Assembly (NCBI GenBank): GCA_017549285.1 | Contig: JAFYVE010000018.1 | Span: 1 to 48,226, forward strand | DNA length: 48,226 nucleotides | DNA from: Clostridia bacterium | GTDB taxonomy: Bacteria > Bacillota > Clostridia > Oscillospirales > Acutalibacteraceae | Direction: 5' to 3' | Shown: positions 19,286 through 33,416 of the stretch, piece after piece | Layout of the letters: each line of letters starts with the position of its first letter | Numbering within the stretch: position 1 is the stretch's first letter | Translations under genes and position numbers: made by a program | Notes under the pieces: generated by a model | Seen by the model: the letters and a program-made list of their open reading frames with translations, nothing else | The model's database searches: none | Told to the model about the DNA's origin: nothing

Positions 19286-19310
19286 GTCTGGAAACAGGTT
19301 GCGGTGTAGC

Positions 19311-19340
19311 CCGTTAGGGCTACGCCGTTTTCCTTATTTC
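19311..19340 (-). terminator. Terminator-like hairpin past the relaxase fragment
   Basis: CGGTGTAGCCC and GGGCTACGCCG, with a GTTA loop, form an 11-bp stem with one G-U pair between the left inverted repeat and the relaxase fragment. There is no long T tract, so the role is uncertain. Confidence 0.45.
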
Positions 19341-19381
19341 AAGCGGTTTTTAGCGGATTTTCACGCATTTCCTGAATGGTT

Positions 19382-19600
19382 TCAAGAATCTCTTGTTCTG
19401 TCGCACCATTCAGGCGGAGCGTGTGACGGGAGAAAGATTTTCTCATAGACAAGACAGCCTTTACGGGTGTAATTGTGTTTTACACCGTCATACTCGTTTC
19501 TGATTTCACTGCAGCTCATATATGCACTTGCAGCAACGGCTGAGCGACCAATACCACGGGTTATGACTTTTGCTTCAAGGTGATAAATTGCGGGTATCAC
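19382..19600 (-). pseudogene. Truncated MobA/MobL relaxase, N-terminal fragment
   Basis: MobA/MobL relaxases nick oriT and pilot plasmid DNA in conjugation. Only about 65 residues of the N-terminus remain (AIYHLEAKVITRGIGRSAVA, then YTRKGCLVYEKIFLP and HAPPEW), after which the frame stops. The catalytic domain normally continues for 200 residues or more. Just past HAPPEW, a different frame encodes RLNGATEQEILETIQEMREN and a stop near 19339, which looks like the C-terminus of another gene. The fragment therefore appears to be fused by deletion to unrelated downstream sequence. The GTG at 19600 is preceded by AAAGGA only two bases away. It is certainly not a functional relaxase. Confidence 0.75.
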
Positions 19601-19610
19601 GTCCTTTCGG

Positions 19611-19638
19611 TTGATTTTTGTTGTCTTTTATGTATAAT
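19611..19638 (+). promoter_or_regulatory. Promoter of the CFI-box cassette
   Basis: TTGATT (19611-19616) and TATAAT (19633-19638) are spaced by 16 bases. It lies just upstream of the relaxase fragment start and points away from it. Confidence 0.6.
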
Positions 19639-19673
19639 TAAAAGTGTTTACAATAATCTTGGGAGGAATTTTT

Positions 19674-21701
19674 GTGGATTATATTGCTTACTCTAATTTT
19701 ATAAATACAATCTGTGATGACAATGATAGTGTCCAAGTGTATTTGGCTATTAATAAAATAGTATCAGAACACCTTGATTTGGCTATAAAAACCTTTGAAA
19801 TAAACACCAAAAGTTTTGAAGATCCTTTACATCAAATGGAAGTTGTTCGTGTATGTTTGAATGAATGTGCGGACAAATTATTTGAAGATTGGAAAGATAG
19901 ATATTTTGAAACTGAACCACCTTCATCTTTAATTAAAAACGAAATTGTATACGGACCCTCTTTTATACAATTAACACAAGTTACATCTGAATATTATAAA
20001 CATGAGCAAAATGCAACTATTGCATATGAAATACAAGCAGAATCAGAAAAAAGGACTGCTATTAAAATTGCAAGTTCTCAGGTAAATGGATTAGGATTTG
20101 GTATTATATCAAATAGTATTGCATCTCATTTGATTTATATGATGCAGAGCGAAGCGGCAATTAAGCGTCAAATTAAAAATGCTGAAGCATATATACAAAA
20201 AGAAAAATCCATTATTAATAGTAGAAGGGATAACAGAATTGCACTATCAAACAGAACATACTATTCAACAAAATATATACCACAAATGACAAAGACAATA
20301 GAAGACTGCTTTTCCGATGTTATTTTATGCTCTATTATGGCTTTAGCTAAAAGAAACTTAATAAATCTCGATATAGTTAAAAATATAAATTATGAATTGT
20401 CGCAAGACACCTTATTACAGATAAATTCGTCAGAAAACATTGAGAGTGTGATAATTAAAGCCCTAGAATATTGTCCTTATAATGTGCACGCTTATGCCGA
20501 AGCAAGAAAACACAACATATCTAATGATGCCTTGCAGTTGGCGATTATGAAATATGAACTGAATTCTGCTATTGATAAAGAAATTGCATTTTCAATGTTA
20601 GATGATAACAATTTTGAGGATGCTTTTGCCGAAATAATTAATAATAACCATATTGACCGCAACGAAAACGAGTGGCAACGCATAGCACAAAAACATCTTG
20701 ACCAAAGTCAGGAAATAATAACAAAGCATCCTGATAGTTTTGCAGGATATGGGGCTGTCGCAATTTATCTTGTAGCAAAAAACATAGAGAGTTATGATAC
20801 AACTTTTTGGAATGATGTACAAAAAAACATTTATGAATTTCTTAATAGATTCAAGCAAAACAACAAATCAGATAAATGTTTTTCAGTAATAGTAGATAAT
20901 TTTAAAAAATATGTTATTGAATATTTTGACTTTTCACGTGATTATACTTATGATGAATCTGGTTGGGATTATGCTCCCGAATATAAACGTTGGAAAAGAA
21001 TGACTCAAGACAAGCGAAGATTAATTCCGGCTATTCATTGCTTCTCTGATTTTATAAATGAGTTATCAAAAATAGGAGCGCCTGAAATCATCATATCTAC
21101 ACTGAATAATGATTTAATATGGTTATTGCACATTTTTTGTAGAGCTCATTTTGCGGCTGATAGTGCCCCCACACAAGGTATTATAAGAAAATATTATCAT
21201 TTACCTCTTTCGGAGAGACAGTTTGCAATAGATATGTATGACAACTTGCTACAATCCTCTTATGCAAATTCAGAAGGAAAATTTACTGATGTTAAGAAAA
21301 AGAACCCAAAGTACATTGTCGAAATTTATAACTCATATAAAAATGAAATTTCAGATTCCGGAAAAGAATTCTTTGGAATTATTAAACCCAATCAAAATGC
21401 ATCTAATACGCATAATGAAGCAAAAAGTAGACCTGCCGGCTGTTATATAGCAACGTATGTATATGGTTCTTATGATAGTCCTCAAGTTTGTGTATTACGC
21501 AGATACCGAGATGATGTTTTAGCAATGTCTTGCTTGGGTAAAATGTTTATATCTTTATACTACACAATAAGTCCGTTGTTGGTGAAGTACTTTGGACAAA
21601 CTTTTTGGTTCAAAAACTTGTTCAAAAAAAGTCTGGACAAAATTGTAGAAAAACTTATGGTAACAGGCTTCTCTAATGAAAATTATATAGACAAAACATA
21701 A
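19674..21701 (+). CDS. CFI-box-CTERM domain protein, function unknown
   Basis: The 675-residue protein probably starts at GTG 19674, because a GGGAGGA site lies six bases upstream; a GTG at 19644 lacks one. The C-terminal 86 residues (from about 590) begin CYIATYVYGSYDSP and include VLRRYRD, SLYYTISP and a hydrophobic tail, matching the CFI-box-CTERM domain family in my recollection. A glycine-rich hydrophobic stretch followed by basic helices lies at about 140-200. The rest is AT-rich and helical without a recognised motif. It is the first gene of a two-gene cassette with the 226-residue partner, 37 bases apart. The base composition is clearly lower in GC than the flanking core genes, indicating transfer. 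Defence or stress roles are possible but unproven. Confidence 0.75.
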   Translation: MDYIAYSNFINTICDDNDSVQVYLAINKIVSEHLDLAIKTFEINTKSFEDPLHQMEVVRVCLNECADKLFEDWKDRYFETEPPSSLIKNEIVYGPSFIQLTQVTSEYYKHEQNATIAYEIQAESEKRTAIKIASSQVNGLGFGIISNSIASHLIYMMQSEAAIKRQIKNAEAYIQKEKSIINSRRDNRIALSNRTYYSTKYIPQMTKTIEDCFSDVILCSIMALAKRNLINLDIVKNINYELSQDTLLQINSSENIESVIIKALEYCPYNVHAYAEARKHNISNDALQLAIMKYELNSAIDKEIAFSMLDDNNFEDAFAEIINNNHIDRNENEWQRIAQKHLDQSQEIITKHPDSFAGYGAVAIYLVAKNIESYDTTFWNDVQKNIYEFLNRFKQNNKSDKCFSVIVDNFKKYVIEYFDFSRDYTYDESGWDYAPEYKRWKRMTQDKRRLIPAIHCFSDFINELSKIGAPEIIISTLNNDLIWLLHIFCRAHFAADSAPTQGIIRKYYHLPLSERQFAIDMYDNLLQSSYANSEGKFTDVKKKNPKYIVEIYNSYKNEISDSGKEFFGIIKPNQNASNTHNEAKSRPAGCYIATYVYGSYDSPQVCVLRRYRDDVLAMSCLGKMFISLYYTISPLLVKYFGQTFWFKNLFKKSLDKIVEKLMVTGFSNENYIDKT

Positions 21702-21738
21702 AACAGTTGATTGTATAAATTGGAAAGGAACAATTATT

Positions 21739-22419
21739 ATGAGTAATGAACTTGAAGTTTTAACGAATGAACCTTCTGAATTTGATTTGTCTACTATTGG
21801 AGATGCGTTATCTACATTTATAGAACAAGGCACAGATGCGGTTTTGAGTGTTTTAAATTCTGATGAGTTTTCAGTTGTTTTTGAATCGATAACAGAAATT
21901 AGTGCTGATTTAATTAAAGCATCAAAAGTGCTAAAAGTTATTCAAAAAACTGCTAGCATTCCAGATAAGATTTTTATGAATAAAATGGAGCAATACTGCA
22001 GAGGCTTGATAAGCATACCCGAAGCCAAAAGACAGGACTATATATCAAAAATCGGTAAAGATAAATTAAATAAAGATTCTGTGTTTATTCTTGGGCTTCT
22101 TAACAAAATAGAAGAACTTTCAAAAATTGATATTCTTCTTGCTTTATTTGAAGCTAAAATGGATGAGGTTATTGAAGATGATACATATCGTCGTCTGTCA
22201 TTAATGGTTGACAGAACTTTGTTTGCTGATCTTACATATTTACAATCAAATATAACAGATGAGGATATTGTTATCGACAACGATCACGAACAAGGGCTGT
22301 TGGCAAATGGCTGGTTATATTATGTTGGTATGTCATGGGGAACGGCAACAGAAGAAAGTCAACAATTATATAAATACGCAAATTTTGCAAAACAGTTTTG
22401 CAAAATATTAAACAAATAA
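21739..22419 (+). CDS. Unknown helical partner protein of the CFI-box cassette
   Basis: I do not recognise this 226-residue protein. It starts after an AAAGGAA site. The N-terminus is acidic (SNELEVLTNEPSEFDLS), the middle is predicted helical with repeated EE, KI and DI pairs (KIEELSKIDILLALFEAKMDEVIEDD), and the C-terminus has a YVGMSWG segment and ends QFCKILNK. There is no signal peptide or transmembrane segment. It follows the CFI-box gene by 37 bases on the same strand and shares its low GC content, so a joint function is likely. It ends just before the oriT-like hairpin. Confidence 0.65.
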   Translation: MSNELEVLTNEPSEFDLSTIGDALSTFIEQGTDAVLSVLNSDEFSVVFESITEISADLIKASKVLKVIQKTASIPDKIFMNKMEQYCRGLISIPEAKRQDYISKIGKDKLNKDSVFILGLLNKIEELSKIDILLALFEAKMDEVIEDDTYRRLSLMVDRTLFADLTYLQSNITDEDIVIDNDHEQGLLANGWLYYVGMSWGTATEESQQLYKYANFAKQFCKILNK

Positions 22420-22430
22420 ATAACCCCTCG

Positions 22431-22475
22431 GAGAGCGCGCTGCACCGCCTTTACGGTGGTGAGTAAGTGCGCCCT
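22431..22475. other. Candidate relic of oriT: nested hairpin
   Basis: An outer arm pair GCGCGCT/AGTGCGC and an inner pair CACCGCC (22443-22449) with GGTGGTG (22455-22461) form one nested hairpin. It lies downstream of the DUF3847-like gene, where mobilizable elements commonly carry oriT before the relaxase gene. Here the relaxase fragment is 2.8 kb away, behind the cargo cassette. Activity is doubtful and the assignment rests on context. Confidence 0.45.
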
Positions 22476-22495
22476 TAAGGGACATATATGAGCCT

Positions 22496-22692
22496 TTAAT
22501 TCAGCTTTCCCTGTAAATACCCCTCAATATCAGTAAAATCCATTGTCTTGATTTCAGGAAAAGCTTCTCTAAAATCGCACCCTCTACAATAAGTCTGTGG
22601 TTTCGCTCTGTGCGTTCCTTCTTGCGGTTGCGGTTTTCAGTCTGCTCAAGTCTGTGCTTGGCTTGCATGAGCTTTTTCTCGTCCTCGGTCAT
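22496..22692 (-). pseudogene. DUF3847-like small mobile-element protein, probably frameshifted
   Basis: The start at 22692 (MTEDEKKLMQ) has a GGAGGTGA site. The charged helical body (EQTENRNRKKERTERNHR) and GAILE segment resemble DUF3847 proteins, which sit beside relaxase genes in Firmicutes elements. After GAILE the read frame turns to KLFLKSRQWILLIL and stops at 22501. In the frame reached by adding one base, the same DNA reads EAFPEIKTMDFTDIEGYLQG and stops at 22496, a far more protein-like acidic tail. A one-base deletion near 22572 in the GAGAA stretch is the simplest explanation. Sequencing error cannot be excluded. Confidence 0.6.
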
Positions 22693-22784
22693 AAATATCA
22701 CCTCCAATCTGTTGGCACCGTAAGCGGTGCCGTTTTTTATTGTGGTTTCCTCTGTGGCTCCGAAATCCGACTGTTTTGGCACCG

Positions 22785-23114
22785 TTAAAACATATCAAGA
22801 AACGCCAATGCTTCTGCATCATTTTTCAGCTTCTGCTCTTCTGTCAACTTCATATCAATACCAGCCGAAGAAGGAACTGTTACGGCAACTGAAATGCCGC
22901 ACAACTCCTCTTTCAGAATCTCCCTGAACTTGTCAAGCAGTTCATCATCTGCCGTCTGTTTCTCTTCATAAGCAATAGCCGATTTAATCGCATCAATGAT
23001 AAACTGATTTCTTGATTTGTACTTTTCTTTATCAAGGCTGTTCAGATAATCAATGATTGACGTGTGCTCTGTGTCGCTTAAATTAAAGCGTACGTTTATG
23101 CGGTACTCACTCAT
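22785..23114 (-). CDS. ParR/StbB-like plasmid segregation adaptor
   Basis: ParR-type proteins bind a centromere and couple it to ParM filaments. The 109-residue protein has an N-terminal ribbon-helix-helix-like block (RINVRFNLSDTEHTSIIDYL, then YKSRNQFIIDAIK) and a charged, weakly conserved C-terminus, as expected of the adaptor. It overlaps the end of the ParM-like gene by four bases (ATGA), implying coupled translation. The role is inferred from size, fold pattern and partner gene; sequence similarity to known ParR proteins could not be tested. Confidence 0.65.
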   Translation of the reverse strand: MSEYRINVRFNLSDTEHTSIIDYLNSLDKEKYKSRNQFIIDAIKSAIAYEEKQTADDELLDKFREILKEELCGISVAVTVPSSAGIDMKLTEEQKLKNDAEALAFLDMF

Positions 23115-24031
23115 ATCCTGCCACTTTTCATCATAGTTTCGGCAAGGTACTCATAACCCTTTGCCGCCGCACAGATGTCATCAACGAACTGAATACGGTC
23201 TGCATTGAACTTGTAGAAATTCTTTACAAGGCAACCGCCACCTCCGGTAATATACAGCATCATAGTGTTTTCATCGTATCCGTGGTCACGGAGTCTGTGG
23301 AAGATTTCAGATACATATTTCTGTACCTCAGCTTTGATAATCTTCATATCAGACTGAACAATGTTTGCCGTACCCTTGCAGAGCACCTCATCAATGATAT
23401 GCTCATTGATTTCTCTTTGCGTTTTTCTGAGGAATGCTTCACGGATATCAACAGTACAGAAATGAGTGCCGAACTTTTCCGTGTACATTCTCTCGGACTG
23501 CGGTCTGCCGTTAATGACATAGAGAACATTCATTGTGCCGTTGCCAATATCAGCTACAAGGTTTACACCGTCCATTTTGGTTGCAAACTGTGAAACCGCC
23601 GCATAACCCTGTGGGTAGATACTCGCACCTGCTATTTTGATTCTGTACTCGGTATGCTGCCAAGTGAAAGTTACCTTTTCGTTCTTTGTCAGATATGCTT
23701 TGAAGCTCTCTTTCTGACCTGCAGTCCAAGTAAGGGGCAGACCTGCCGCAATATGAACTGTAGCCTCGGTTAAGTTTTCGGCACTTAGCTCCTTTGCAAT
23801 AGCCACAAGTGTGAGGGCGTAGTAATCCTCGTCTTTGATTTTGTCGGGAAGGAACTCCTTGTGTCCTTCACCGATAAGATAGAACTTGCCACCGTAAACA
23901 AGCATATCATTTGTGAAAAGTGGCTCTGAATCGTAAGCAGTAATGCCTGTTCTGAAACAGTGGTTTGCAGTTTTGATGTTGCCGTAACCGTGGTCAACAC
24001 CGATGATGATTACATCATTAAATTTTTTCAT
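23111..24031 (-). CDS. ParM/StbA-like actin ATPase for DNA segregation
   Basis: ParM forms dynamic filaments that push plasmid copies apart. The ATG at 24031 has an AAAGGAG site eight bases upstream, so the in-frame extension to 24157 is treated as leader. The protein has 306 residues. Actin-fold motifs are in order: GVDHGYGNIKT (phosphate 1), LVADIGNGTMNV (phosphate 2, mid-protein) and LYITGGGGCLVKN (adenosine motif near the C-terminus). The gene is first of a parM-parR pair, with a terminator-like hairpin between its likely promoter and start. It suggests the island once replicated as, or stabilised, an extrachromosomal form. Confidence 0.8.
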   Translation of the reverse strand: MKKFNDVIIIGVDHGYGNIKTANHCFRTGITAYDSEPLFTNDMLVYGGKFYLIGEGHKEFLPDKIKDEDYYALTLVAIAKELSAENLTEATVHIAAGLPLTWTAGQKESFKAYLTKNEKVTFTWQHTEYRIKIAGASIYPQGYAAVSQFATKMDGVNLVADIGNGTMNVLYVINGRPQSERMYTEKFGTHFCTVDIREAFLRKTQREINEHIIDEVLCKGTANIVQSDMKIIKAEVQKYVSEIFHRLRDHGYDENTMMLYITGGGGCLVKNFYKFNADRIQFVDDICAAAKGYEYLAETMMKSGRI

Positions 24032-24082
24032 TTCGAATGACTCCTTTGAATTAAAATTTTGTTTGATAATAGATTTAGGCAT

Positions 24083-24106
24083 AAAAAAAGCACCCTCTAC
24101 GGGTGC
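24083..24106 (-). terminator. Attenuator-like hairpin in the parM leader
   Basis: On the minus strand GCACCC and GGGTGC form a 6-bp stem followed at once by seven Ts, ending about 50 bases before the parM start. The position between promoter and gene implies premature termination that must be relieved. A small in-frame leader reading from 24157 runs through it. Confidence 0.6.
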
Positions 24107-24177
24107 GGTGGGAAAATGGGTCTGTCGCGAATGTTGAAGATAAACACTTCCTTTCATAAAATTATTTTTATATGTAA

Positions 24178-24389
24178 AGTTAGTTAGTGGCTATTTTAGC
24201 CATCTACCAGAATTACCGGATGTAGAAATTCTCCAAGTTCCCCAAATGGGGACTTGGAGAATGTGGGCATAAATGCTCCAAGTGATACGATGTATCACTT
24301 GGGTGAAAAATCTAAAGCAGTATTCATATACTGGAATTTAGGGTTTTGGGTATAAAAAACACCTGCTACTTTTGAAGTAACAAGTGCGT
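24178..24389 (-). promoter_or_regulatory. Hairpin-dense noncoding region upstream of parM
   Basis: Read on the minus strand the stretch folds into successive hairpins: a 12-bp stem followed by six Ts (about 24355-24389), a smaller CAGTAT/ATACTG stem, a perfect 11-bp inverted repeat CCAAGTGATAC/GTATCACTTGG (24278-24302), a bulged 13-bp stem with TCTCCAAG/CTTGGAGA ends (24230-24260), and GGCTA/TAGCC. The two central hairpins share the CCAAGT core. It could be a parC-type centromere, a leader RNA or a replication site; sequence alone does not decide. Confidence 0.55.
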
Positions 24390-24396
24390 GTTAATG

Positions 24397-24426
24397 TTGA
24401 TTTATTTTGTTATGTAGGCGTATAAT
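24397..24426 (+). promoter_or_regulatory. Promoter of the ECF sigma gene
   Basis: TTGATT (24397-24402) and TATAAT (24421-24426) are spaced by 18 bases, about 90 bases before the sigma gene start. Confidence 0.5.
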
Positions 24427-24516
24427 TATTGTTATAAGTATTTCTATTTATATTTTTTATGACAATGAAAAAAATATTGCTTTTCATTCGTTTTGTAGAT
24501 GAAAGGAGGTTTTAAC

Positions 24517-25011
24517 ATGTATTCTTTTACCGGTAATGAATACATAGAAAAGGCAGTAGAAAATTACAGCGATGCAATGCTTAATGCTGCATACTCTATC
24601 TTAAAGTCAACTGCAGATGCTGAAGATGTCGTGCAGGAAGCTTTTTTGAAGTATATACGCAAAAGACCTGTTTTCAACAGTGACGAGCATGAAAAAGCAT
24701 GGCTTATCAGAGTTACAATAAACACAGCTAAAGATATGCTAAAATCTTCTGAAAGAAAGAACCTGCCTATTTGTGAGGATATCCTATATAACCAAATTGA
24801 TGAATCGCAGAAAACAGCCAACAGTGTTTTGGAATGTGTTTTCAATCTTGAAGAAAAATATCGAATAATAATACACTTATATTATTACGAAGAATATTCT
24901 CTGAAAGAAATAGCTTCAATATTACAACTACCGCTTGCAACTGTGGGAACACGTCTTTCCAGAGGTAGAAAAATTTTAAAAACTATGTTAAAAGGAGAGT
25001 TTGATTTATGA
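24517..25011 (+). CDS. ECF-type RNA polymerase sigma factor
   Basis: The 164-residue protein starts after AAAGGAGG with a 7-base spacer; the ATG at 24499 overlaps that site and is rejected. Region 2 contains ADAEDVVQEAFLKYI (about 34-48), with HEKAWLIRVTINTAKDML following. Region 4 contains EKYRIIIHLYYYEEYSLKEI and the helix-turn-helix IASILQLPLATVGTRLSRGR. Region 3 is absent, as in group 4 sigma factors. Its stop overlaps the start of the membrane partner gene (ATGA), the usual sigma/anti-sigma arrangement. It may control the island or an envelope response; target promoters are unknown. Confidence 0.88.
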   Translation: MYSFTGNEYIEKAVENYSDAMLNAAYSILKSTADAEDVVQEAFLKYIRKRPVFNSDEHEKAWLIRVTINTAKDMLKSSERKNLPICEDILYNQIDESQKTANSVLECVFNLEEKYRIIIHLYYYEEYSLKEIASILQLPLATVGTRLSRGRKILKTMLKGEFDL

Positions 25012-25724
25012 CATTCAAAGAGAAATACAAAGAAGAACTTTCTGATACCCGTTTTAGTGAAAATTTTAAGGGAAACACTGTGTCTCTGCTAACACAGGCG
25101 GCTGAAAGAAAGGATAATGTTTTTATGACAAGTAAAAGAAAGTTTATCAAAACTGTAGCATTAGTAGCTGCAATAATTATGACCTTATCATTAAGTGCCT
25201 TTGCAATGATTTCGTTCCTGTCCTCTGCAGATGTAGCAACCCATTTTGGCAATAAAGAACTTGCTGTTCTTTTTGAAAAATCAGATTTCGAGCCTGAAAC
25301 AATAAAAGGCGAAGATTATAGTGTTACATTTATGGGAACAGCACAAGGTGAAAATATTTGTGAAATTAACGGTATAACAACAAACGAAGGAAGAACCTAT
25401 GCAGTATATGCAGTTTATAGAAATGATGGTACGGCACTTGATATTCTTGATGGTAATCCCATTCATATAATCCCCGTATCAGACGGACAGAGAATAAACA
25501 CTCTTACAAGTTATGGTATGTCTGCGAGTTGCTTTGTAAAAGACGGTATACTTTATGCCATGTATGATTATACTGACCTTAAAGCTTTTACAGATATAGA
25601 TATCTCACTTATGGCATTTGAATCTTCAGTGTCACCATCTAAGGCATTGACAACAAATGAAAAAGGTGAAATTGTTTTCGCAGACGACTACAACGGATTC
25701 AAAGGAGAGTTTTCTCTCAAATAA
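25008..25724 (+). CDS. Membrane protein, probable anti-sigma partner
   Basis: The 238-residue protein is translationally coupled to the sigma gene by a four-base overlap. Residues 1-42 are cytoplasmic and charged, residues about 45-67 form one transmembrane helix (TVALVAAIIMTLSLSAFAMISFL), and the remainder is an extracellular beta-rich domain with NxGRTYAVYAVYRNDGT and MYDYTDLKAF blocks. No zinc-binding HxxxCxxC anti-sigma motif is present, so sequestration would follow a different type. The anti-sigma role is inferred from gene order and single-pass topology and resembles DUF4179-like partners. A terminator follows. Confidence 0.65.
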   Translation: MTFKEKYKEELSDTRFSENFKGNTVSLLTQAAERKDNVFMTSKRKFIKTVALVAAIIMTLSLSAFAMISFLSSADVATHFGNKELAVLFEKSDFEPETIKGEDYSVTFMGTAQGENICEINGITTNEGRTYAVYAVYRNDGTALDILDGNPIHIIPVSDGQRINTLTSYGMSASCFVKDGILYAMYDYTDLKAFTDIDISLMAFESSVSPSKALTTNEKGEIVFADDYNGFKGEFSLK

Positions 25725-25748
25725 TCACACTCATATCATACACGATGA

Positions 25749-25780
25749 CTGCTCTCCCCGTGAGGGCAGTTTCCCTTTCC
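25749..25780 (+). terminator. Terminator of the sigma operon, repeat copy 1
   Basis: CTGCTCTC (25749-25756) and GAGGGCAG (25762-25769) pair around CCCGT, followed by a pyrimidine-rich tail. Nearly the same hairpin recurs at 26696-26716, on the other side of the transglutaminase-like gene. Confidence 0.65.
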
Positions 25781-25816
25781 AAACTGAGTTAACATTACAT
25801 TTCTTTGCTTTAGTGA

Positions 25817-25846
25817 TTGTTTTTGTTGGTTTGATTGTGGTATAAT
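25817..25846 (+). promoter_or_regulatory. Promoter of the transglutaminase-like gene
   Basis: TTGTTT (25817-25822) and TATAAT (25841-25846) are spaced by 18 bases, about 30 bases before the start codon. Confidence 0.55.
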
Positions 25847-25876
25847 ACTTTAAACTTATTTGGCAGGTGAAAGAGA

Positions 25877-26677
25877 ATGAATATAAAAGCTTTGTTTAAA
25901 AGTCTTCCATTGCAGACTAATCCGAAAAAGTACGAACAGTTTGTTAAAGAGCTTGACTATAAAAAATTACTAGCAGAAGACCCAGTGGAAATTAGAGATA
26001 AATATTATGTTGATAATGAGGATTTAGTTGAAACTGATTTAGCACATATTTCTGCAACCCGAGAACTTCACAAAAAACTTGAAGAAAAATACAAGCTTTC
26101 TGAAGTTGCTACTGCCGATACCGATTTCGAAAAGGTTATTCAGGTTTTAAATTGGCTTACACAAAACACTTTTTACAATGGTGCACAGATTCATTTGCTG
26201 ACAGATAACACTCTTGACATTTTAAAATATGCTTATGGTAAATCTTTTAAAAAAGCTCTTTGTTGTAGGTTGAAAGCAATTTCTTTTGCAGATTGCCTCG
26301 TAGCAGCTGGAATAAAAGCATATCCGGTTTGTATGTGTTCGTCCGTATTAAAAAACAGTCATTTTACTTGCCAAGCATATATAAGTGAACTTGACAAATG
26401 GTGCGTTTTTGACCCCTCATTTGGTTGTTGGTTTACTGATAAAGCCGGAAATCCTATTGATATTTTTGAAATGAGAGAAATGTTTTTACAAGGTGATGAA
26501 CCTGTTGTTAACGGATACAATTTTAATGGTACAGCAGAATGCTTTGATGTTTATATCAATTGTTTTCTGAAAATGTGTATTTCTAATCTTTCAACTTGGC
26601 ATGATAATTCTATGGATAGAAGAGATAAAACCAAAATGTCTGATAAAAAAAGATTTAATTGCAGAATTCCAAATTAA
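25877..26677 (+). CDS. Transglutaminase-like superfamily protein
   Basis: The fold is papain-like, with enzymes that cleave or crosslink amide bonds; here the substrate is unknown. The protein has 266 residues and no signal peptide, so it is cytoplasmic. The catalytic triad pattern is visible: cysteine in ALCCRLKAISFADCLVAAGI (C129 or C130), histidine in KNSHFTCQAYI (H162) and aspartate in KWCVFDPSFG (D179). The N-terminal 120 residues are helical and unrecognised. It has its own promoter and lies between two near-identical terminator hairpins, as if inserted as a unit after the sigma operon. It could be a peptidase, a toxin-like modifier or an immunity-linked protein; none is shown. Confidence 0.75.
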   Translation: MNIKALFKSLPLQTNPKKYEQFVKELDYKKLLAEDPVEIRDKYYVDNEDLVETDLAHISATRELHKKLEEKYKLSEVATADTDFEKVIQVLNWLTQNTFYNGAQIHLLTDNTLDILKYAYGKSFKKALCCRLKAISFADCLVAAGIKAYPVCMCSSVLKNSHFTCQAYISELDKWCVFDPSFGCWFTDKAGNPIDIFEMREMFLQGDEPVVNGYNFNGTAECFDVYINCFLKMCISNLSTWHDNSMDRRDKTKMSDKKRFNCRIPN

Positions 26678-26695
26678 TATTGCCTATATTTTCAA

Positions 26696-26722
26696 TTGCT
26701 CTCCCTGTGAGGGCAGTTTTTA
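26696..26722 (+). terminator. Terminator of the transglutaminase-like gene, repeat copy 2
   Basis: TTGCTCTC (26696-26703) pairs with GAGGGCAG (26709-26716) around CCTGT, followed by a five-T run. This nearly repeats the hairpin at 25749. Confidence 0.75.
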
Positions 26723-26984
26723 TTTGCCGTTTTGACTCCCTCTACTATACTTAATACGGAAAAAGTGCGATTTCTAACGGAATACCGCAACAACCGTAAA
26801 ATGATAAACGCAACAACGCCGTAACGCCTTATATATAAACCTATTTAAACATTTCAATAATTTGATAATCTTATTTTGCAACAAAAATTTATCGCAATTT
26901 TTTGTAAAATCAATATTTATTCGTCAAAAAGTCCGTTTTTTCGTACTTATCCTGCTATATAATAGCAAACGGGCAATATGCGTA
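26723..26984. other. AT-rich noncoding region with iteron-like repeats
   Basis: No gene is visible. Two related units, CGCAACAACCGTAA (26786-26799) and CGCAACAACGCCGTAA (26809-26824), lie 23 bases apart in direct orientation. A perfect palindrome TGCTAT/ATAGCA with an ATA loop is at 26953-26967. They might be protein-binding sites upstream of the DUF6076 promoter or a remnant of a replication origin. Confidence 0.5.
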
Positions 26985-27014
26985 TTGACAAACGAACATT
27001 TGTTCTTATATAAT
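26985..27014 (+). promoter_or_regulatory. Promoter of the DUF6076 operon with LexA-type box
   Basis: Consensus TTGACA (26985-26990) and TATAAT (27009-27014) are spaced by 18 bases. In the spacer, 26993-27006 reads CGAAC-ATTT-GTTC-T, matching the Gram-positive SOS box CGAAC-N4-GTTCG at all but the last base. LexA bound there would block both promoter elements. Confidence 0.7.
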
Positions 27015-27051
27015 ATATGTATAGTTTAGTTTTTAATTAGGTGGTGAAACA

Positions 27052-28158
27052 ATGCTTTTCAGTGCAGATTATAGAGACGGTATTGTTACGATTGATAAGA
27101 AGCATTATGCAGGATTTTATGCTATGAGCTTGCTCAATCAGTATTATAAAAATGACAATGACGCCCGCATTGCAGTTTTTCGTGAATATCTGTGGCATAT
27201 CAGAGAAACTCTTGCTCTCGGTTATCTGAATGATACCGACTTTACTAAAGCCGGGGTAGAAATACAGATGATGTTGAAAACACTGCCTAACATTAAGCCT
27301 TTCAATACCTGTGATATTGGTGCAGAAAAAGAAAGAATATCTTATCTTTTCACAAAGGTAAATGCGGATTTAATTACCCAATATTTCCGCCGAAAAGCAA
27401 AGGTACAGAACATTGATACGGCTCAAGCTGTGTTGGATATTTTACCACCCGAATATGACAAATCATTTTTCAAAACGGCAGAGGATTTACTGAAAACAGT
27501 CAATGAAACCATAAACTTTTATGACAAGCTCCCTGATGATATGGAAAAGGCATTTAAAAGTCTGTTGAGATTTGTTTTCCGTCTTGATGAAGCAGAACGC
27601 TTTGATGAAGCACATCTGTTACCTATTGCTATGGACATATTCAGTAAAACAGATTGTAATGTCAGAACAGAGTATGTTGCTGTTACAAAGAAAAAGGATG
27701 TGGCAGTTGCAAAACGGCTGACCTTTGAAGATTATTACTCCTTTATCGTTACAGATTTTTTTGAAGGTTTACACCACGGACACTACCCGAAACAGTGCGG
27801 TATATGTAACAGATATTTCCTTATGACGTCAGCTCGAAAACAGAAATACTGTAATGGCTTTGCTCCGTATATGCTACGAGGCAAGAGAACAACCTGCCGA
27901 AAGTATGCGGCATCAATCAAACGCAAGGAACGAGAGCAGGATAATCCCGTTGTGGCTATATATGAAAAAAGAGCATCTGCAATCCGAACAGAAAAAAGCA
28001 GAGGCACTATAACAGCAGAGTTTGCAAAGATGGCAACTTTTATTGCGAAAAACAATATGCTAAGGGCACAGGAAAATCACGAATATTTTACTACACAGTA
28101 CACAAAGGATATGACCCGTAAAAAGCTGTATTATGACACTAAAAATATGTTGAGATAA
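27052..28158 (+). CDS. DUF6076-like protein with C-terminal zinc-binding motif
   Basis: The 368-residue protein follows a GGTGG-type site. Residues about 1-240 are helical and unrecognised. Near residue 246 a CGICNRYFLMTS block begins, followed by QKYCNG and TTCRKY; together these give a CxxC-x(n)-C-x(n)-C set that probably binds zinc. A basic C-terminal helix follows. This pattern matches DUF6076 proteins, common on Firmicutes mobile elements, as far as I recall. It is the first gene of an operon with a sigma-like protein 18 bases downstream, under a promoter with a LexA-type box, so it may be induced by DNA damage. Molecular function is unknown. Confidence 0.7.
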   Translation: MLFSADYRDGIVTIDKKHYAGFYAMSLLNQYYKNDNDARIAVFREYLWHIRETLALGYLNDTDFTKAGVEIQMMLKTLPNIKPFNTCDIGAEKERISYLFTKVNADLITQYFRRKAKVQNIDTAQAVLDILPPEYDKSFFKTAEDLLKTVNETINFYDKLPDDMEKAFKSLLRFVFRLDEAERFDEAHLLPIAMDIFSKTDCNVRTEYVAVTKKKDVAVAKRLTFEDYYSFIVTDFFEGLHHGHYPKQCGICNRYFLMTSARKQKYCNGFAPYMLRGKRTTCRKYAASIKRKEREQDNPVVAIYEKRASAIRTEKSRGTITAEFAKMATFIAKNNMLRAQENHEYFTTQYTKDMTRKKLYYDTKNMLR

Positions 28159-28176
28159 AAAAGGACAGTGAGTGCC

Positions 28177-29091
28177 GTGAAGGATTGGGAAAAAGAATTA
28201 TATATTTACAAGCTGAAGCCGGCACCGCCGAAGATGCATTTACAGGAATATATTGAGCTTTACTTAAAAGAAAAGGATGATAAATATATATCTTGGTTCT
28301 TGCATTATTACGAACCTATACTCAATAAAAGTGTAATGGGCTTTGTTCAGGAATATGCAATGCCCGGTCACTTTGCAGATTTGAAATCCGCTTGCATATT
28401 TGCACTGCTCAAAGCCTTGAAAAAGTATGATGCTTCAAAACATAAGTCCTTTGAAAATTACTATACAGAGTTTTATGTCAAAAGAGAAGTTCACGAATAT
28501 GTGCGTACTATGAGAACAGGCTACACCATACCCACAGAGGATGAGGATGCACGGCTTCGCAAGATTATGGCACTGTACCGAGAAAACAATTACAGAAATG
28601 ATGATGAAACTATCAGCAGAATTGCCGCTGAACTTAACCTGAAGCCGAAAAAGGTGGTTGAGATAATCTCCGCCAGTCTTCGCAATATGAACTACACAGA
28701 GTTTTACAAAAACCTTGCCGATGATGAAAGCGAAGTCAGAGAGGACGAATATATTGCAGACTCATCATCCGAGCCTTTGACAATGCTGCTTAATGCTATG
28801 CGTAAAGAGGCGGTACACGAGGTTTTCAGTAAGCTTTATTATGATGAACAGTATATGGTTGCAGGCAGATTAGGTTTCTGTATGGACTGCTTTTCGGATT
28901 ACTACATGGATAAATCTGTCACCGACAAAGACGGAAATACGAAGAAAGTAAAATTCAAGAAAATGACTTACCTCGATCTTGCAAATACATTTGGAAAATC
29001 ATCACCTGATACTGCATATCAGACAGTCCACCGAGCCTATGCAAAAATGCGGGAGTGGCTGAAAGATACGGAGTATTTTAAGGGGGAGTAA
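28177..29091 (+). CDS. Sigma-70-like regulator of a mobile element
   Basis: Sigma-like features: region 2 in SVMGFVQEYAMPGHFADLKSACIFALLKALKKYD with FENYYTEFYVKREVHEYVR after it, a region 3-like DETISRIAAELNLKPKKVVEI, and a C-terminal helix-turn-helix MTYLDLANTFGKSSPDTAYQTVHRAYAKM. The GTG at 28177 is chosen because the AAGGA site is 11 bases upstream; a GTG at 28168 is only 2 bases from it. The protein has 304 residues and begins MKDWEK. An acidic linker (DDESEVREDEYIADSSSE) separates the domains. It is second in the DUF6076 operon. It may direct element genes under SOS control; this is inference. Confidence 0.7.
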   Translation: MKDWEKELYIYKLKPAPPKMHLQEYIELYLKEKDDKYISWFLHYYEPILNKSVMGFVQEYAMPGHFADLKSACIFALLKALKKYDASKHKSFENYYTEFYVKREVHEYVRTMRTGYTIPTEDEDARLRKIMALYRENNYRNDDETISRIAAELNLKPKKVVEIISASLRNMNYTEFYKNLADDESEVREDEYIADSSSEPLTMLLNAMRKEAVHEVFSKLYYDEQYMVAGRLGFCMDCFSDYYMDKSVTDKDGNTKKVKFKKMTYLDLANTFGKSSPDTAYQTVHRAYAKMREWLKDTEYFKGE

Positions 29092-29171
29092 AAATTTTCA
29101 AAAGAATTGATAAACATAATTTTAATTAAAATACATTAAAGTTAATTTTTAAATACTTTGTTATTGTTAAA

Positions 29172-29193
29172 GAAATTGAACTGAAATTGAACT
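29172..29193 (+). promoter_or_regulatory. Tandem 11-bp operator-like repeat
   Basis: GAAATTGAACT occurs twice with no gap (29172-29182 and 29183-29193), six bases upstream of the -35 of the nitrilase operon. An 11-bp period places both copies on the same DNA face, as for a dimeric or cooperative regulator. Confidence 0.6.
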
Positions 29194-29199
29194 ATATGC

Positions 29200-29229
29200 T
29201 TGACAACTGCTATTTTTTTATGTTAATAT
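29200..29229 (+). promoter_or_regulatory. Promoter of the nitrilase operon
   Basis: TTGACA (29200-29205) with a TAATAT -10 (29224-29229) is spaced by 18 bases. The AAGGTGG ribosome site of the first gene follows. Confidence 0.65.
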
Positions 29230-29255
29230 TACCATAGAAAGAAGGTGGAAAGCAT

Positions 29256-30740
29256 ATGCCGAACGCGCAGCAAGTTCAAAAATACTTTAATATCTTTGCT
29301 CGTGCCTTGCGCGTAGTAGAAGATTTCCCTGAAAACAAGGCACAGATTTTTGCTTTAGAAAACTCAAAAGAAATTTCAATAGAAACCCGTACCTTCCTAT
29401 TGGCAAAATTTAAACTAGACAAAGAAGAATTCTTAAAAGAAATTGAAATGTTAATAGTGTCAATTGAAGAAGCCGATGAATCTTGCAAATTTGTTAAAGC
29501 ATTAACAATGTGTCAGTTTCTAGATGAAATAATAAGTTATTTGGATTCCTGCGATGGCACGTTCTCTGTATTCTCTTTGGTTTCAGTTTATAGCAATAAT
29601 GTTGTTGTATTAGACGAACCACTGAATGGTAATTATAAAGAAACAGGGATTTGGATCAATCCCAAATTTATAGCTAGCCTTTTGTACAAAGAAGACCCGC
29701 AGCAAGATTATCCTCAACGATTGTTCAATCGAGATGGGTATATGGGCATAAATGGAGACTTAAATAATATTAGCTATATTAAATGGGATTCATCTCTATC
29801 TATCACTAATGTTATTGTTCCAAACGAATTTTCTGTTGAAAATTCTTCCTGTTTTAAAATAGCTTTCAGCCCCCTTTTAAATAGAAAAGATTTGTTAGAT
29901 ACCGATATAATCAGGCTTGACCGTGGTGGAAAAACTTTTACAGGAGAATGCCTAAAGAAATTGAATCATTCCACTGAATTAGAAAAATCTTTTTGTTCCG
30001 CTTGGTCGATGGCCTGTAAAGCTAATGCAAATATACTTTTTGCGCCAGAAATGTTGTGCACTGAGATTATGGCAAAAATAGATAATGGGTTTAATTCTTT
30101 AATTTACAAAATGTCACAAGAAAAGTTGTTACAAGGAGAGTCGGTTGCCGACATAACAATTATGCCTAGTTATTGGCGAGATTGTAACAACAGTTGTCAA
30201 ATAACATATCAAAATGGAGAAATTTTAGGAGAACAATTCAAGTTTCATCCCTATACCGATAAGAAAAATGGACGTATGGAATCTTTGAAAGAAATAAACA
30301 AAAAAGAAATTATACTTATCCATATACCAAATGTTCATCGTATTGTTGTAATGATTTGTTCTGATTTTCTAACAGATCAAGAAAAATGGTTAGAAAATAT
30401 TGTTTGCAAGCAGTTGTTACCTACTTTGATTTTAGTTCCCTCTTTTTCTCCTGGAGAACAAGATTTCATAAATTCATTATCAATTGCTAAACGCTACGGT
30501 ACTTCTGTAATTTGGGGAAATTGTTGTGGCGCAAAAGCTGAAGGTGAAAATCAAATAGGTGGATGTGGTATTGTCGGCATGGACAATATTATGCGATTTA
30601 GAGACGTAAACAAATGTGGTTTAACGTGTAACGATGGACAAGGTTGTATTTTTACCATAGAGATCCCGCTAAAACTGACCGGAAACAAAGATAACGACAC
30701 AATTTCCGTAAAACATCTTCTAAATAGCGACAAAATATAA
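29256..30740 (+). CDS. Nitrilase-superfamily (carbon-nitrogen hydrolase) protein with unknown N-terminal domain
   Basis: Nitrilase-superfamily enzymes cleave or condense C-N bonds through a Glu-Lys-Cys triad. All three are visible: E265 in LFAPEMLC, K329 in GEQFKFHPY, C368 in VVMICSDFL, followed by VPSFSPGEQDF and the IAKRYGTSVIWGNCCG block. The domain occupies about 200-475 of 494 residues. Residues 1-190 are helical then beta-rich and unrecognised. There is no signal peptide. The base composition is AT-rich, unlike neighbouring core genes. It is first of a three-gene operon with a winged-helix protein and an unknown protein. Similar enzymes act as stand-alone effectors or fused to reverse transcriptases in phage defence; that parallel is suggestive only. 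Confidence 0.75.
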   Translation: MPNAQQVQKYFNIFARALRVVEDFPENKAQIFALENSKEISIETRTFLLAKFKLDKEEFLKEIEMLIVSIEEADESCKFVKALTMCQFLDEIISYLDSCDGTFSVFSLVSVYSNNVVVLDEPLNGNYKETGIWINPKFIASLLYKEDPQQDYPQRLFNRDGYMGINGDLNNISYIKWDSSLSITNVIVPNEFSVENSSCFKIAFSPLLNRKDLLDTDIIRLDRGGKTFTGECLKKLNHSTELEKSFCSAWSMACKANANILFAPEMLCTEIMAKIDNGFNSLIYKMSQEKLLQGESVADITIMPSYWRDCNNSCQITYQNGEILGEQFKFHPYTDKKNGRMESLKEINKKEIILIHIPNVHRIVVMICSDFLTDQEKWLENIVCKQLLPTLILVPSFSPGEQDFINSLSIAKRYGTSVIWGNCCGAKAEGENQIGGCGIVGMDNIMRFRDVNKCGLTCNDGQGCIFTIEIPLKLTGNKDNDTISVKHLLNSDKI

Positions 30741-30785
30741 CCATATCAAATGATATAATGTCACGTATAGAAAGAAGGATGAAAA

Positions 30786-31709
30786 ATGAAAAATGAACTA
30801 TGGATATCACCAGATTTAGATTTATGCACAACTTTAAAAGAAGAGCTTTATGATTCTGTAATCGAATATGCAGAAGAGAATCAAAGACAATTGCTTGTAA
30901 AAGCAAAACGAAATGAAACGGAAATTTTGAAAAAATCCCTAAAACTCGGAACAGCTATTCTTCGATATCAAGAAAGGGTATTTAAACAAGAAAAAAGCAA
31001 ATTATCAATATACAAACTAGGTGTATTATCTGGAAGTATCGATGCATTAAATCAATTAATTTATGACAGAGATCAAAAGCAACAAACTATTGATAATTTC
31101 AAAGAGAGCATAAAATGTGTAAAACATTTAAAAAAAATAATTTCTCTATTAGATCTGTATGGTAGCTTAACACATGCAGAAGTGAGTGAAAAGCTCAATG
31201 TTAATCCACCTACATTAACAGAAATAATGAAAAAAATCATCCCAACAACATTGGTTAATGTAACTTTATCTGGTAAATATAAGCTATATTCATTAACAGA
31301 TCAAGGACGTCAACTAGCTTTATATGTTCGAGAAATACAATCAGAAAACGATCAGTTGGAAAATCTTTTTGAGCAACTAAAAAAATACAGTCAGGAAACC
31401 AATGATACGGAAAGAATCAGAAAATACATAAATAACCTATTGAAAGAACTAAATGGTGCGACTATTATACCGGGAGAAAAAATATCTCTTGATTTCCGCG
31501 ACATTCAGAAAAATCAAACACATTTAGAACTACTAATTGAAAAAGTTAATAGCAATTCTGATTTAACTACAAATATAAAAGGATCACTTACCGAACAAAC
31601 TGTTTTGCCAATCAAATACGAAAAACTCATAGAAAAAGAAAATAAAAGGAGAGCCGAAAATGAAAACAATAGAAAAGTTGCAGCGTATGTTAGAAACAGC
31701 ATCTGGTAA
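30786..31709 (+). CDS. Winged-helix protein, second gene of the nitrilase operon
   Basis: The 307-residue protein starts after GAAGGATG. Residues 1-110 form a charged, probably helical domain. Residues 112-180 have a MarR-like winged helix: LLDLYGSLTHAEVSEKLNVN, PPTLTEIMKKI as recognition helix, then a wing with GKYKLYSLTDQGRQLA. Helical segments follow to the end. A DNA-binding sensor or regulator is plausible and it could bind the tandem operator upstream of the operon. Its large size for a MarR-type protein suggests additional roles. A small TATAAT-like motif in the 45-base gap upstream may add a weak internal promoter. Its 3' end overlaps the next gene by 50 bases. Confidence 0.7.
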   Translation: MKNELWISPDLDLCTTLKEELYDSVIEYAEENQRQLLVKAKRNETEILKKSLKLGTAILRYQERVFKQEKSKLSIYKLGVLSGSIDALNQLIYDRDQKQQTIDNFKESIKCVKHLKKIISLLDLYGSLTHAEVSEKLNVNPPTLTEIMKKIIPTTLVNVTLSGKYKLYSLTDQGRQLALYVREIQSENDQLENLFEQLKKYSQETNDTERIRKYINNLLKELNGATIIPGEKISLDFRDIQKNQTHLELLIEKVNSNSDLTTNIKGSLTEQTVLPIKYEKLIEKENKRRAENENNRKVAAYVRNSIW

Positions 31710-32310
31710 TCCGCTTGACATCCATTTAGTATTATATAGAGATTTTATTTCTCAAAGCGAAACGCCAGAACAAGTGTTAAGGGTAATTTTAGAGTATTCT
31801 AGCGAAATTGGGAATTCTGAAGACGATTCTCCAACTTTAATTACTGAAGATGAAGCATTTGAGTATTACTTTGAATATTTTGAATTGGTAAATGCTACGC
31901 TTAAAACCATTATAGATAAAAATCTTTCTGTTGAAGATTTTTACAAAAAACTATACACCAATGTATTTAAATTAGATCTTTTACCTCAAGATGAAAAAGG
32001 ACAAGCTGTTTTACTTTACTTGCTATCGTCCAAAAAAATCCAAGGATTGCCTTATTATCAAGCGACTGATTTACTTGAAATGGACGAAGAACTCTATAAA
32101 GAAATTATAAATAGAATCGAAGATAAAATATCCCTTGGTGTATATATGCTAGATAGAAAATTTAAAAGCAAAACAGAAGAAATTTCCCAGTTGTGGAAAT
32201 TGGCTTCTAAGTTGGAGTCTAGAGAAGAACAAATTGTCTTTTGGTCTGTAATAATTGGTATTATAAGAAAATTTGAACGTGGAGAAAACGAAGTATCTGA
32301 TTTGGAATAA
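31660..32310 (+). CDS. Unknown acidic helical protein, third gene of the nitrilase operon
   Basis: I do not recognise this 216-residue protein. It starts inside the end of the winged-helix gene in another frame, with an AAAGGAG site, overlapping by 50 bases. It is acidic in the first third (GNSEDDSPTLITEDEAFEYYFEYF) and otherwise helical with many KI/EI pairs. There is no cysteine motif, signal peptide or membrane segment. Neither gene in the overlap has a stop before its natural end, so the pair is a genuine overlap rather than a frameshift, as far as the sequence shows. A strong hairpin follows 17 bases after the stop, closing the operon. Confidence 0.65.
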   Translation: MKTIEKLQRMLETASGNPLDIHLVLYRDFISQSETPEQVLRVILEYSSEIGNSEDDSPTLITEDEAFEYYFEYFELVNATLKTIIDKNLSVEDFYKKLYTNVFKLDLLPQDEKGQAVLLYLLSSKKIQGLPYYQATDLLEMDEELYKEIINRIEDKISLGVYMLDRKFKSKTEEISQLWKLASKLESREEQIVFWSVIIGIIRKFERGENEVSDLE

Positions 32311-32326
32311 AACAAAGTAAAACAGA

Positions 32327-32358
32327 GAGGTGACTTGCTATAAAAAGCAAGTCACCTC
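32327..32358 (+). terminator. Terminator-like hairpin of the nitrilase operon
   Basis: A perfect 13-bp stem, GAGGTGACTTGCT (32327-32339) with AGCAAGTCACCTC (32346-32358) around ATAAAA, follows the third gene. The downstream T tract is short, so efficiency is uncertain. Confidence 0.75.
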
Positions 32359-32687
32359 CTTGTCTTGTATCCAGTAGGAATCAAAAAGATAGTTTTTACA
32401 GCTTCCTTTTCATATATAACACATTCTGATTTATAGCCTATACTATGCTATGTAAACATTGCGTTTGATCTTTTAAAGCTTTTTGGATAGCCAGCAAGTA
32501 AAATATTATAAACTTAGCTCCATTCAACTAATGTTTTTTAATTCGTTGAAGCCACTATTCTTCGGCAAGCGGACATTCAGACATTCGTATCAAATTTTTG
32601 ATACGATACGCAGTCATAATAACACCTCGAAAACAAGTTCCCCTAAAAATAATACAAAATAATTCTATTATCAAGAATTTTATGATT
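32359..32687. other. Noncoding gap with palindrome and a 20-codon reading frame
   Basis: A perfect 9-bp palindrome CGTATCAAA/TTTGATACG with TT between lies at 32586-32605. On the minus strand a small frame (32555-32617, beginning MTAYRIKNLIRMSECPLAEE) follows a GAGGTG site and stops after 20 codons; it may be a truncated remnant. I see no further gene in this gap. Confidence 0.45.
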
Positions 32688-33056
32688 TCAGCGGTTATCA
32701 ATCAATTCGTTTGCAACGATTTCTCTAGCTCTTGCTTCAATATTCCCCATTCTCTGCACCCATTCCATTTGATTTTCCTCTTTCAGTTGCTCGGTTACAC
32801 CTTCTAACGATTTCATTTGCTCAACAAGAGTATAAAACATATTTCGCGCTTGGTTTTCAACCTCGGCACAGTGCTGATACAGTTTGCCTTTGATAAGCAG
32901 CGAGTTAAAGAGAAATTTATTGTGTTTTTCAAGATGAGATTTGTAGAGCATACCCCATTTGCCGAGTGTGATATTTGCCTCTTCGGGCGGGATAATGAGG
33001 TTCGGGATGAGATAGTCGCCAACACAGCGATAACTGATAGAATTATTGTTTGACAT
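32688..33056 (-). CDS. tnpV: TnpV-like transposon protein
   Basis: TnpV is a small protein carried by Tn4451-type and other Firmicutes mobile elements; its role is not established. The start at 33056 has AAGGAGG eight bases upstream, so the longer frame to 33089 is rejected. The 122-residue protein begins MSNNNSISYRCVGDYLIPNL. It then has the PxEEANITLGKWGMLYKSHLEKH block and LLIKGKLYQHCAEVENQARN, matching my memory of TnpV in order and spacing. The AAGGAGG site overlaps the stop codon of a 51-residue upstream gene, so translation is coupled. It marks the region as mobile-element DNA, although no recombinase accompanies it. Confidence 0.75.
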   Translation of the reverse strand: MSNNNSISYRCVGDYLIPNLIIPPEEANITLGKWGMLYKSHLEKHNKFLFNSLLIKGKLYQHCAEVENQARNMFYTLVEQMKSLEGVTEQLKEENQMEWVQRMGNIEARAREIVANELIDNR

Positions 33057-33069
33057 AATGACAACCTCC

Positions 33070-33225
33070 TTATTTTTCACTTTTATCAATGATTTTCAAT
33101 AACAGCTCATCAACATCCTCAGTGGGTAAATCCTCTGCCAAAAGCATATTTCGGAACTCATTCATACCATTGATTAAAAGGTTGCACTCAAAATCCGTAA
33201 ACTTAATTTTTGTTTTCCTGCTCAT
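33070..33225 (-). CDS. Small 51-residue protein upstream of tnpV
   Basis: This short gene was read directly from the minus strand: ATG at 33225 behind CAGGAGG, stop at 33070, product MSRKTKIKFTDFECNLLINGMN and on to SEK, 51 residues. It is charged and helical with an acidic DLPTEDVDELLL end. No family is recognised; a TnpW-like identity is possible but cannot be tested here. Its stop overlaps the tnpV ribosome site. Its own ribosome site lies in one arm of the inverted repeat at 33234-33276. Confidence 0.7.
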   Translation of the reverse strand: MSRKTKIKFTDFECNLLINGMNEFRNMLLAEDLPTEDVDELLLKIIDKSEK

Positions 33226-33233
33226 AAAAATGA

Positions 33234-33276
33234 CCTCCTGTTATTTGGTAATTTCATTTTACCTTATAACAGGAGG
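33234..33276 (-). promoter_or_regulatory. Hairpin that can mask the ribosome site of the small gene
   Basis: A perfect 11-bp inverted repeat CCTCCTGTTAT (33234-33244) and ATAACAGGAGG (33266-33276), with an inner GGTAA/TTACC pair. On the minus strand the proximal arm is the ribosome site of the 51-residue gene, so folding of the RNA would occlude it. Confidence 0.6.
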
Positions 33277-33379
33277 TTAGTCGAATGTGTGGATTTTAAT
33301 ATAAAAAGAAAAGATAGAAAAGCGTTAAACTCTTCTCTCTACTCTTTAACTCATCGCAATGCTCGTACTATTAAGTTAG

Positions 33380-33416
33380 TGTCCTTAAGAGTACGACGCA
33401 TTTGCGACTCTTTTTT
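33380..33416 (-). repeat. Right terminal inverted repeat of the island
   Basis: Read inward on the minus strand it starts AAAAAAGAGTCGCA like the left end, then differs at six of the remaining positions and ends TTAAGGACA. It finishes at 33416, one base before the lysA stop codon complement. Confidence 0.8.

Follow-up and report, generated by a model that had tools for sequence, protein, structure and literature searches.

Nitrilase domains serve as effectors in several described anti-phage systems. In DRT1, a class 3 defence-associated reverse transcriptase (RT) joined to a nitrilase, DNA synthesis activates the nitrilase, a filament keeps it closed and the outcome is abortive infection, as reported in a study that gives the nitrilase substrate as unknown (PMC13275509). 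The UG5 RT-nitrilase with its 1TM partner is likewise reported as a defence cassette of several genes, one with a nitrilase domain, carried by a mobile element (PMC9122126). The nitrilase passages of both papers and of a third one deal with RT fusions (PMC13275509, PMC9122126, PMC8934634). We analyzed a contig of 48,226 nucleotides from a Clostridia bacterium (GCA_017549285.1, JAFYVE010000018.1; hereafter the window), in which three genes at 29256-32310 encode a nitrilase-type enzyme, a winged-helix protein and a third protein. The trio is a conserved unit. We read it as a horizontally moving, self-regulated three-gene effector module, most likely for phage defence by cell shutdown, and consider the chances of this reading about even. 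It builds on the recurrence of the trio, the intact active site and predicted fold of the enzyme, a trio-specific operator-promoter sequence and the insertion found in the window. From these we infer that gene 2 binds the operator, that gene 3 of the window type is helical and contacts gene 1, and what the trigger, the substrate and the role in defence would be.

The three open reading frames (ORFs) run in the same direction on the forward strand at 29256-30740 (gene 1, 494 aa), 30786-31709 (gene 2, 307 aa) and 31660-32310 (gene 3, 216 aa), with a 50-base overlap of genes 2 and 3 at 31660-31709, exactly as placed in the initial annotation. That annotation had also described AT-rich genes and a closing hairpin, and both were found: the GC content of the trio is 31.7% versus 40-41% in the flanks, and a terminator-like hairpin with a 13 bp stem closes the operon at 32327-32358 on the forward strand (-26.3 kcal/mol, z -7.4, none of 200 shuffles equally stable). 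Chance ORFs were ruled out as an explanation of the three genes, since the trio recurs at other loci.

By its predicted features, gene 1 is a nitrilase-superfamily amidohydrolase with an intact active site. Its Glu-Lys-Cys triad, numbered correctly beforehand as E265, K329 and C368, and a fourth residue, E342, are invariant in 27 of 27 enzymes (10 from trios and 17 stand-alone relatives). Both the triad with a second Glu and the predicted nitrilase fold, two marks of the superfamily, were present. The nitrilase domain spans residues 199-472, and the domain ahead of it (~1-190), described earlier as unassigned, received no name from library scans either. Genes 1 and 3 gave no usable match in Pfam, NCBIfam or PADLOC library scans, and NCBIfam offered no useful name for the enzyme. 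Allowing E up to 1, Pfam CN_hydrolase matched 14 of 21 family members, the best at 0.0032, and the window copy was not among the matches listed. A first search of solved structures with a 2-row profile gave no match; with a 21-row profile, the sole solved structure at E up to 0.1 was glutamine-dependent NAD+ synthetase (PDB 5kha, E 9.3e-4), to whose glutaminase domain the trio enzyme can be compared, although it has no match to the synthetase domain. Furthermore, C424, C454, C458 and C464 (residues 424-464, window 30525-30647) are invariant in 27 of 27 family members and perhaps form a metal site. A similar C-terminal Cys cluster was also seen at a Sandarakinorhabdus locus (L040).

The effector domain of DRT1 belongs to the same superfamily as gene 1, and in DRT1 a potentially harmful nitrilase is likewise controlled by other parts (PMC13275509). 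However, the 494 aa enzyme of the trio stands on its own, differs at the N-terminus and has an appended Cys cluster, the trio adds a winged-helix partner and a third protein, and library scans of the three window proteins found no RT domain of the kind that characterizes DRT1. The PADLOC RT-associated nitrilase model matched 19 of 21 family members at E up to 0.1. These relatives matched the RT-nitrilase models weakly, and only L018 did so also ahead of the nitrilase core (RT_UG5-nitrilase, E 0.0078). In the UG5 system, the RT is fused to the nitrilase and a transmembrane partner takes the place of the winged-helix and third proteins (PMC9122126). The nitrilase half of the PADLOC CARF-nitrilase model (CARF_m7--CARF_nitrilase) aligned in 14 of 21 members (best E 2e-11), but in the members shown singly the match spans this half only (model 213-415 of 457), and a diverged CARF could escape it. 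CARF-nitrilase is tied to type III CRISPR. No system with this trio had been recognized in the initial annotation, and we likewise matched none in the libraries and literature searched; the literature search for the three-gene combination found none, with most subscription papers and all preprints outside its scope.

The trio was found repeatedly in other genomes. A one-row search matched the own genome only among 98 relatives, and the own genome and G238 only among 398 genomes of the phylum; a two-row profile returned the same two from 391 genomes of the class. A profile search in the family of G238 matched 6 of 250 genomes, three with the trio and three with the enzyme alone. For the window's own family the figure was 2 of 250, namely the window's genome and G1240, the latter with a stand-alone enzyme. 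A genome contig scan gave 40 loci, which hmmsearch of their ORFs divided into six of trio type (L017, L018, L023, L033, L034 and L035), 14 in which the enzyme stands alone and 20 of other kinds, for the most part more distantly related nitrilase proteins. The contig end cuts L033 after the start of gene 2. In addition, a gene 2 profile identified five true trios (G238, G914, G1072, G1116 and G1190) among 348 genomes of the family of G238. At low score, gene 2 was rejected as a marker of the trio, with matches at E <= 0.001 in 145 of the 348 genomes; of the weaker loci, 11 were inspected by eye in addition to the five trios and lacked a trio, and diverged trios may be missed because the remaining low-score matches were left unread. 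Since L017 and L010 are one contig, the trio loci number 10 (the window, L003, L014, L017, L018, L023, L034, L035, L077 and L078), plus the cut L033.

Gene order and strand are identical in 10 of 10 trio loci, and in nine of them the gap between genes 1 and 2 measures -28 to +51 bp and that between genes 2 and 3 measures -62 to +22 bp. The closest relative of the window trio is L077, with 40, 29 and 38% identity for proteins 1, 2 and 3. The co-location of the three genes held in one direction: outside trios, neither gene 2 nor gene 3 was encountered, whereas relatives of gene 1 more often stand alone (17 loci versus 10 plus one cut). Two loci depart from the common form. L014 is the sole trio with long gaps (257 and 155 bp, at 4586-4842 and 5947-6101), and it has a single half-site of the operator described below; L017 has a gene 1 split by a frameshift (9391-9795 and 9764-10735), which is one frame in the near-identical L018 copy; the split may stem from an assembly error or from decay.

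The strongest new result of the analysis is the operator-promoter sequence specific to the trio. Upstream of gene 1, GAAATTGAACT stands twice in tandem at 29172-29193 on the forward strand, giving TGAAC half-sites with an 11 bp period; a run as long occurred in 6 of 500 shuffles. This candidate operator precedes a promoter at 29200-29229 on the same strand (TTGACA-18-TAATAT, with TG before the -10 box), whose geometry relative to the repeat is conserved. Its 10 of 12 consensus matches are equalled by four other sites in the region, but it alone among these five has a perfect TTGACA and the TG before -10; promoter-like sites in the region are not in excess (17 versus 18.0 in shuffles). Both elements had been proposed in the initial annotation, and the proposal stood, with the exact 11-mer repeated and the arrangement recurring before other trios. 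The arrangement can be written as [TC]GAA[CTG], 5-6 nt, half-site, 5-7 nt, TTGnnn, 16-18 nt, TAnnnT. This pattern, derived from the same loci on which it was counted, was found upstream of gene 1 in 10 of 11 trio loci (including L033) and in none of the 17 stand-alone loci; the remaining trio locus, L014, combines the promoter with a single half-site. Because L017/L018, L023/L078, L033/L034/L035 and the window/L077 are close kin, the independent lineages with the pattern come to ~5 of 6. In all fetched DNA (2,547,706 nt over both strands, ~1.27 Mb, partly redundant) the pattern had 20 matches, re-fetched copies counted, and every one was a trio promoter. A stricter search for two half-sites irrespective of the promoter gave 9 of 11 trio versus 1 of 17 stand-alone loci. 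With a looser pattern, 47 stretches were found in viral contigs; they all lacked the complete arrangement with the promoter, and no trio gene was encoded in them. The half-site letters differ by trio lineage, which suggests co-variation with gene 2, and gene 2 may be the binder of the candidate operator.

Gene 2, the candidate autoregulator, consists of an N-terminal region, a predicted winged helix at ~110-180 and a C-terminal tail. The winged helix was weak in the library, in which HTH_24 reached 20.8 bits, under the 21.9 cut-off, and came out better with a 7-row profile, which matched a MarR structure at E 2.6e-5. A weak PADLOC match to the CARF3 model (E 1.5e-4) was confined to the winged helix. 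The predicted winged helix of gene 2 resembles that of MarR, MntR and ArsR regulators, and its N- and C-termini are longer than theirs. MarR proteins usually bind palindromes, whereas the trio has direct repeats ahead of the operon. Winged-helix proteins loosely resembling gene 2 were also seen by eye next to other genes, which encode a membrane protein (L079 5845-8018), a restriction-endonuclease-like protein (L088 3544-5110) and an integrase-like protein (L092 4832-7119). The third protein occurs in two types, A (the window, L077 and L014) and B (the other seven trio loci), between which no similarity was detectable (hhalign probability 0.2%, few sequences); gene 2 of the A-type set aligns with gene 2 of the B-type set at E 6e-17. 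The A-type protein was encountered in trios only, and in a whole-genome search that covered this type alone it was present in 1 of 110 genomes, namely the trio genome. The B-type protein, for which the helical HN fold of COMMD proteins is a possible assignment, matched nothing of weight among solved structures (best E 0.16), and the third protein had no match to viral-protein folds at E <= 0.001.

Comparison with relatives indicates that the window cassette is mobile cargo. In three genus relatives (L108, L109 and L110), the sequences corresponding to window 17863-19143 and 33417/33440 onward are adjacent (blastn), with a gap within 200 bp. Because the flanking sequences adjoin there, we conclude that ~14 kb is inserted in the window, at 19144-33396, the limits being where similarity to these empty-site relatives stops and resumes; the earlier placement of the trio inside a mobile element was thereby confirmed. 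The right flank from 33.4 kb is a decarboxylase gene present in 11 of 11 genus genomes, including the own one. Of the other lysA regions fetched, L111 and L114 match the right side only, and L115 begins near its contig end and resumes at 33397. The insert carries genes for an actin-like protein, DUF3847, DUF6076 and sigma-like proteins, the trio and TnpV, a transposon-encoded protein on the reverse strand (32688-33089, Pfam TnpV 1.9e-40). The DUF6076 protein (27052-28158, Pfam 5.6e-45) and the sigma-factor-like protein (28168-29091, sigma models down to 2.6e-10) form a backbone pair on the forward strand (27052-29091), followed by the cargo slot. The same pair has different cargo behind it in L112 (G005) and L113 (G007). 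Matching backbone pieces and the TnpV end of L112 are 78-90% identical to the window, and a 148-bp match at the TnpV end likewise closes the related stretch there. In L113, ZacA, ZacB and the first part of ZacC, which runs off the contig, lie directly behind the pair at 11989-17091 (2.6e-91 to 3.6e-187), and the DUF6076-sigma pair may be the marker of a slot that takes up defence genes as cargo.

In the mechanism we propose, gene 2 would bind the tandem half-sites ahead of the operon and set its expression, and gene 3, as a small helical partner, would help hold or release the enzyme at the protein level. Gene 1 would be kept quiet by both proteins in the resting state. When phages infect the cell or the regulator is lost, the enzyme would hydrolyze an essential amide-bearing small molecule, much as the discoverers of DRT1 suppose for its nitrilase. 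The trio would in this way meet the control problem of DRT1 without a reverse transcriptase. It is possible, though short of probable, that the trio represents an anti-phage system of a new sort. Its killing enzyme would then be a free-standing nitrilase with neither RT nor CARF, probably acting on NAD-type or similar amide-bearing metabolites, and would be held both by a winged-helix autoregulator on a dedicated direct-repeat operator and by a small helical protein, COMMD/HN-like and existing in two or more sequence types. A literature search on bacterial COMMD proteins gave only titles on unrelated subjects. Some gut bacteria carry this conserved cassette, in which a predicted DNA-binding protein and a putative helical protein accompany a nitrilase-type enzyme predicted to cut amides. 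An RT-free nitrilase module this compact, in which the partners are two small proteins and the candidate operator is defined, would be directly open to testing.

Defence genes occur near some trios: an FRG protein, a type II-A retron and AbiH near L003, Olokun A and B near L023, and near L014 a type II methyltransferase truncated where its contig ends. However, several observations weigh against a role in defence. The trios of L017, L018, L034, L035, L077 and L078 lie amid ordinary genes (by eye), and the trio neighbours scanned were chosen by eye and not blind. AbiEi/AbiEii, type II methyltransferases and candidate defence families were also found near the stand-alone control loci, where the scan at E <= 1e-10 covered 142 neighbours of the 17 enzymes (complete ORFs of >=150 aa, no more than 5 kb away) and listed 25 of the 27 families matched. 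Enrichment for defence genes, which the initial annotation had put forward as a check, was not established, because the control loci were positive as well and the trio neighbours were eye-picked, and we rejected the claim of enrichment in defence islands. The slot of L112 (368-7861) holds radical-SAM-like, ATP-grasp-like and decarboxylase-like genes and a membrane protein (named by eye), and neither of the two slot proteins searched matched PADLOC. No trio was found in plasmid collections, which gave six distant Azospirillum nitrilase matches, or in phage and viral-contig collections searched with gene 1 only. The operator-promoter count carries the circularity noted above. The window enzyme itself had no PADLOC match, to either the DRT1 or the CARF-nitrilase model, so the link to DRT1-type nitrilases suggested earlier applies to its relatives and not to the window copy. 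Finally, as described next, the sister clade of stand-alone enzymes looks metabolic.

On the tree, the 17 stand-alone enzymes group together as a single clade with short branches (99/99). The trio enzymes fall outside it on deep, mostly long branches, and whether they are a single clade is unclear; monophyly of all trio enzymes was rejected as a claim: the tree has two changes, a single change was seen in 2% of 200 bootstrap trees, and long branches meet. The stand-alone hosts are Oribacterium, Treponema and other Lachnospiraceae. A Nudix-box gene lies near 14 of the 17 stand-alone enzymes (13 within 160 bp), on either side and either strand, versus 0 of 10 trio loci; examples are L012 7681-8301, L082 3923-4510 and L020 10696-11265, with 11 more loci. 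The one Nudix protein searched, that of L012, matched ADP-sugar/ADP-ribose pyrophosphatases (up to 1.1e-9). The Nudix partner in 14 of 17 therefore suggests that the sister enzymes act in nucleotide or NAD metabolism, which supplies a candidate substrate class for the trio. One stand-alone enzyme with no Nudix partner has a convergent helicase-like gene 9 bp away (L011 5-2680, PADLOC PbeA 2.7e-11).

The Nudix pairing is the main support for the alternative that survives best, a metabolic operon in which a salvage or detoxifying amidase, perhaps for NAD-type compounds, has a dedicated winged-helix regulator and no link to phages; the pyrophosphatase matches of L012 and the NAD+ synthetase match of the enzyme profile point the same way. 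We nevertheless regard it as unlikely, since the Nudix gene is missing from every trio locus, the trio is patchy, diverged, inserted in the window and set in varied neighbourhoods, and a third protein with no enzyme-like match is retained in every trio. The initial annotation had named membership of a housekeeping amidase clade as what would refute it, and the outcome was divided: the stand-alone relatives do form a metabolic-looking clade, but the trio enzymes are outside it.

A toxin-antitoxin-like addiction module that stabilizes the element, with gene 1 as toxin and gene 2 (as autorepressor), gene 3 or both as antitoxin, would account for the operator-like site, the tight gene coupling and the insertion; three sizeable proteins, an enzyme gene in first place and several copies amid ordinary chromosomal genes make it improbable. 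OmpR-type response regulators bind head-to-tail repeats of ~11 bp. That the repeats are the site of such a host regulator, with gene 2 acting on the enzyme instead, is the least probable alternative, for although a repeat beside the -35 box suits an activator as well as a repressor, the 17-mer at 29176-29192 has a single exact occurrence in its own genome (three more at 2 mismatches, none for the reversed control), the half-site letters track the trio lineage and the repeats are absent before the 17 stand-alone relatives. Should the effector module turn out not to act in defence, it is still a new unit that deserves a name: a mobile operon that is conserved, has its own switch and goes without library annotation.

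The nitrilase profile also matched large proteins of ~870-1370 aa from Asgard archaea and deltaproteobacteria (L037-L039, L042, L043, L045, L048-L050 and L052-L056). The nitrilase lies at the C-terminus in the five that were aligned, and L055 encodes three such proteins in tandem.

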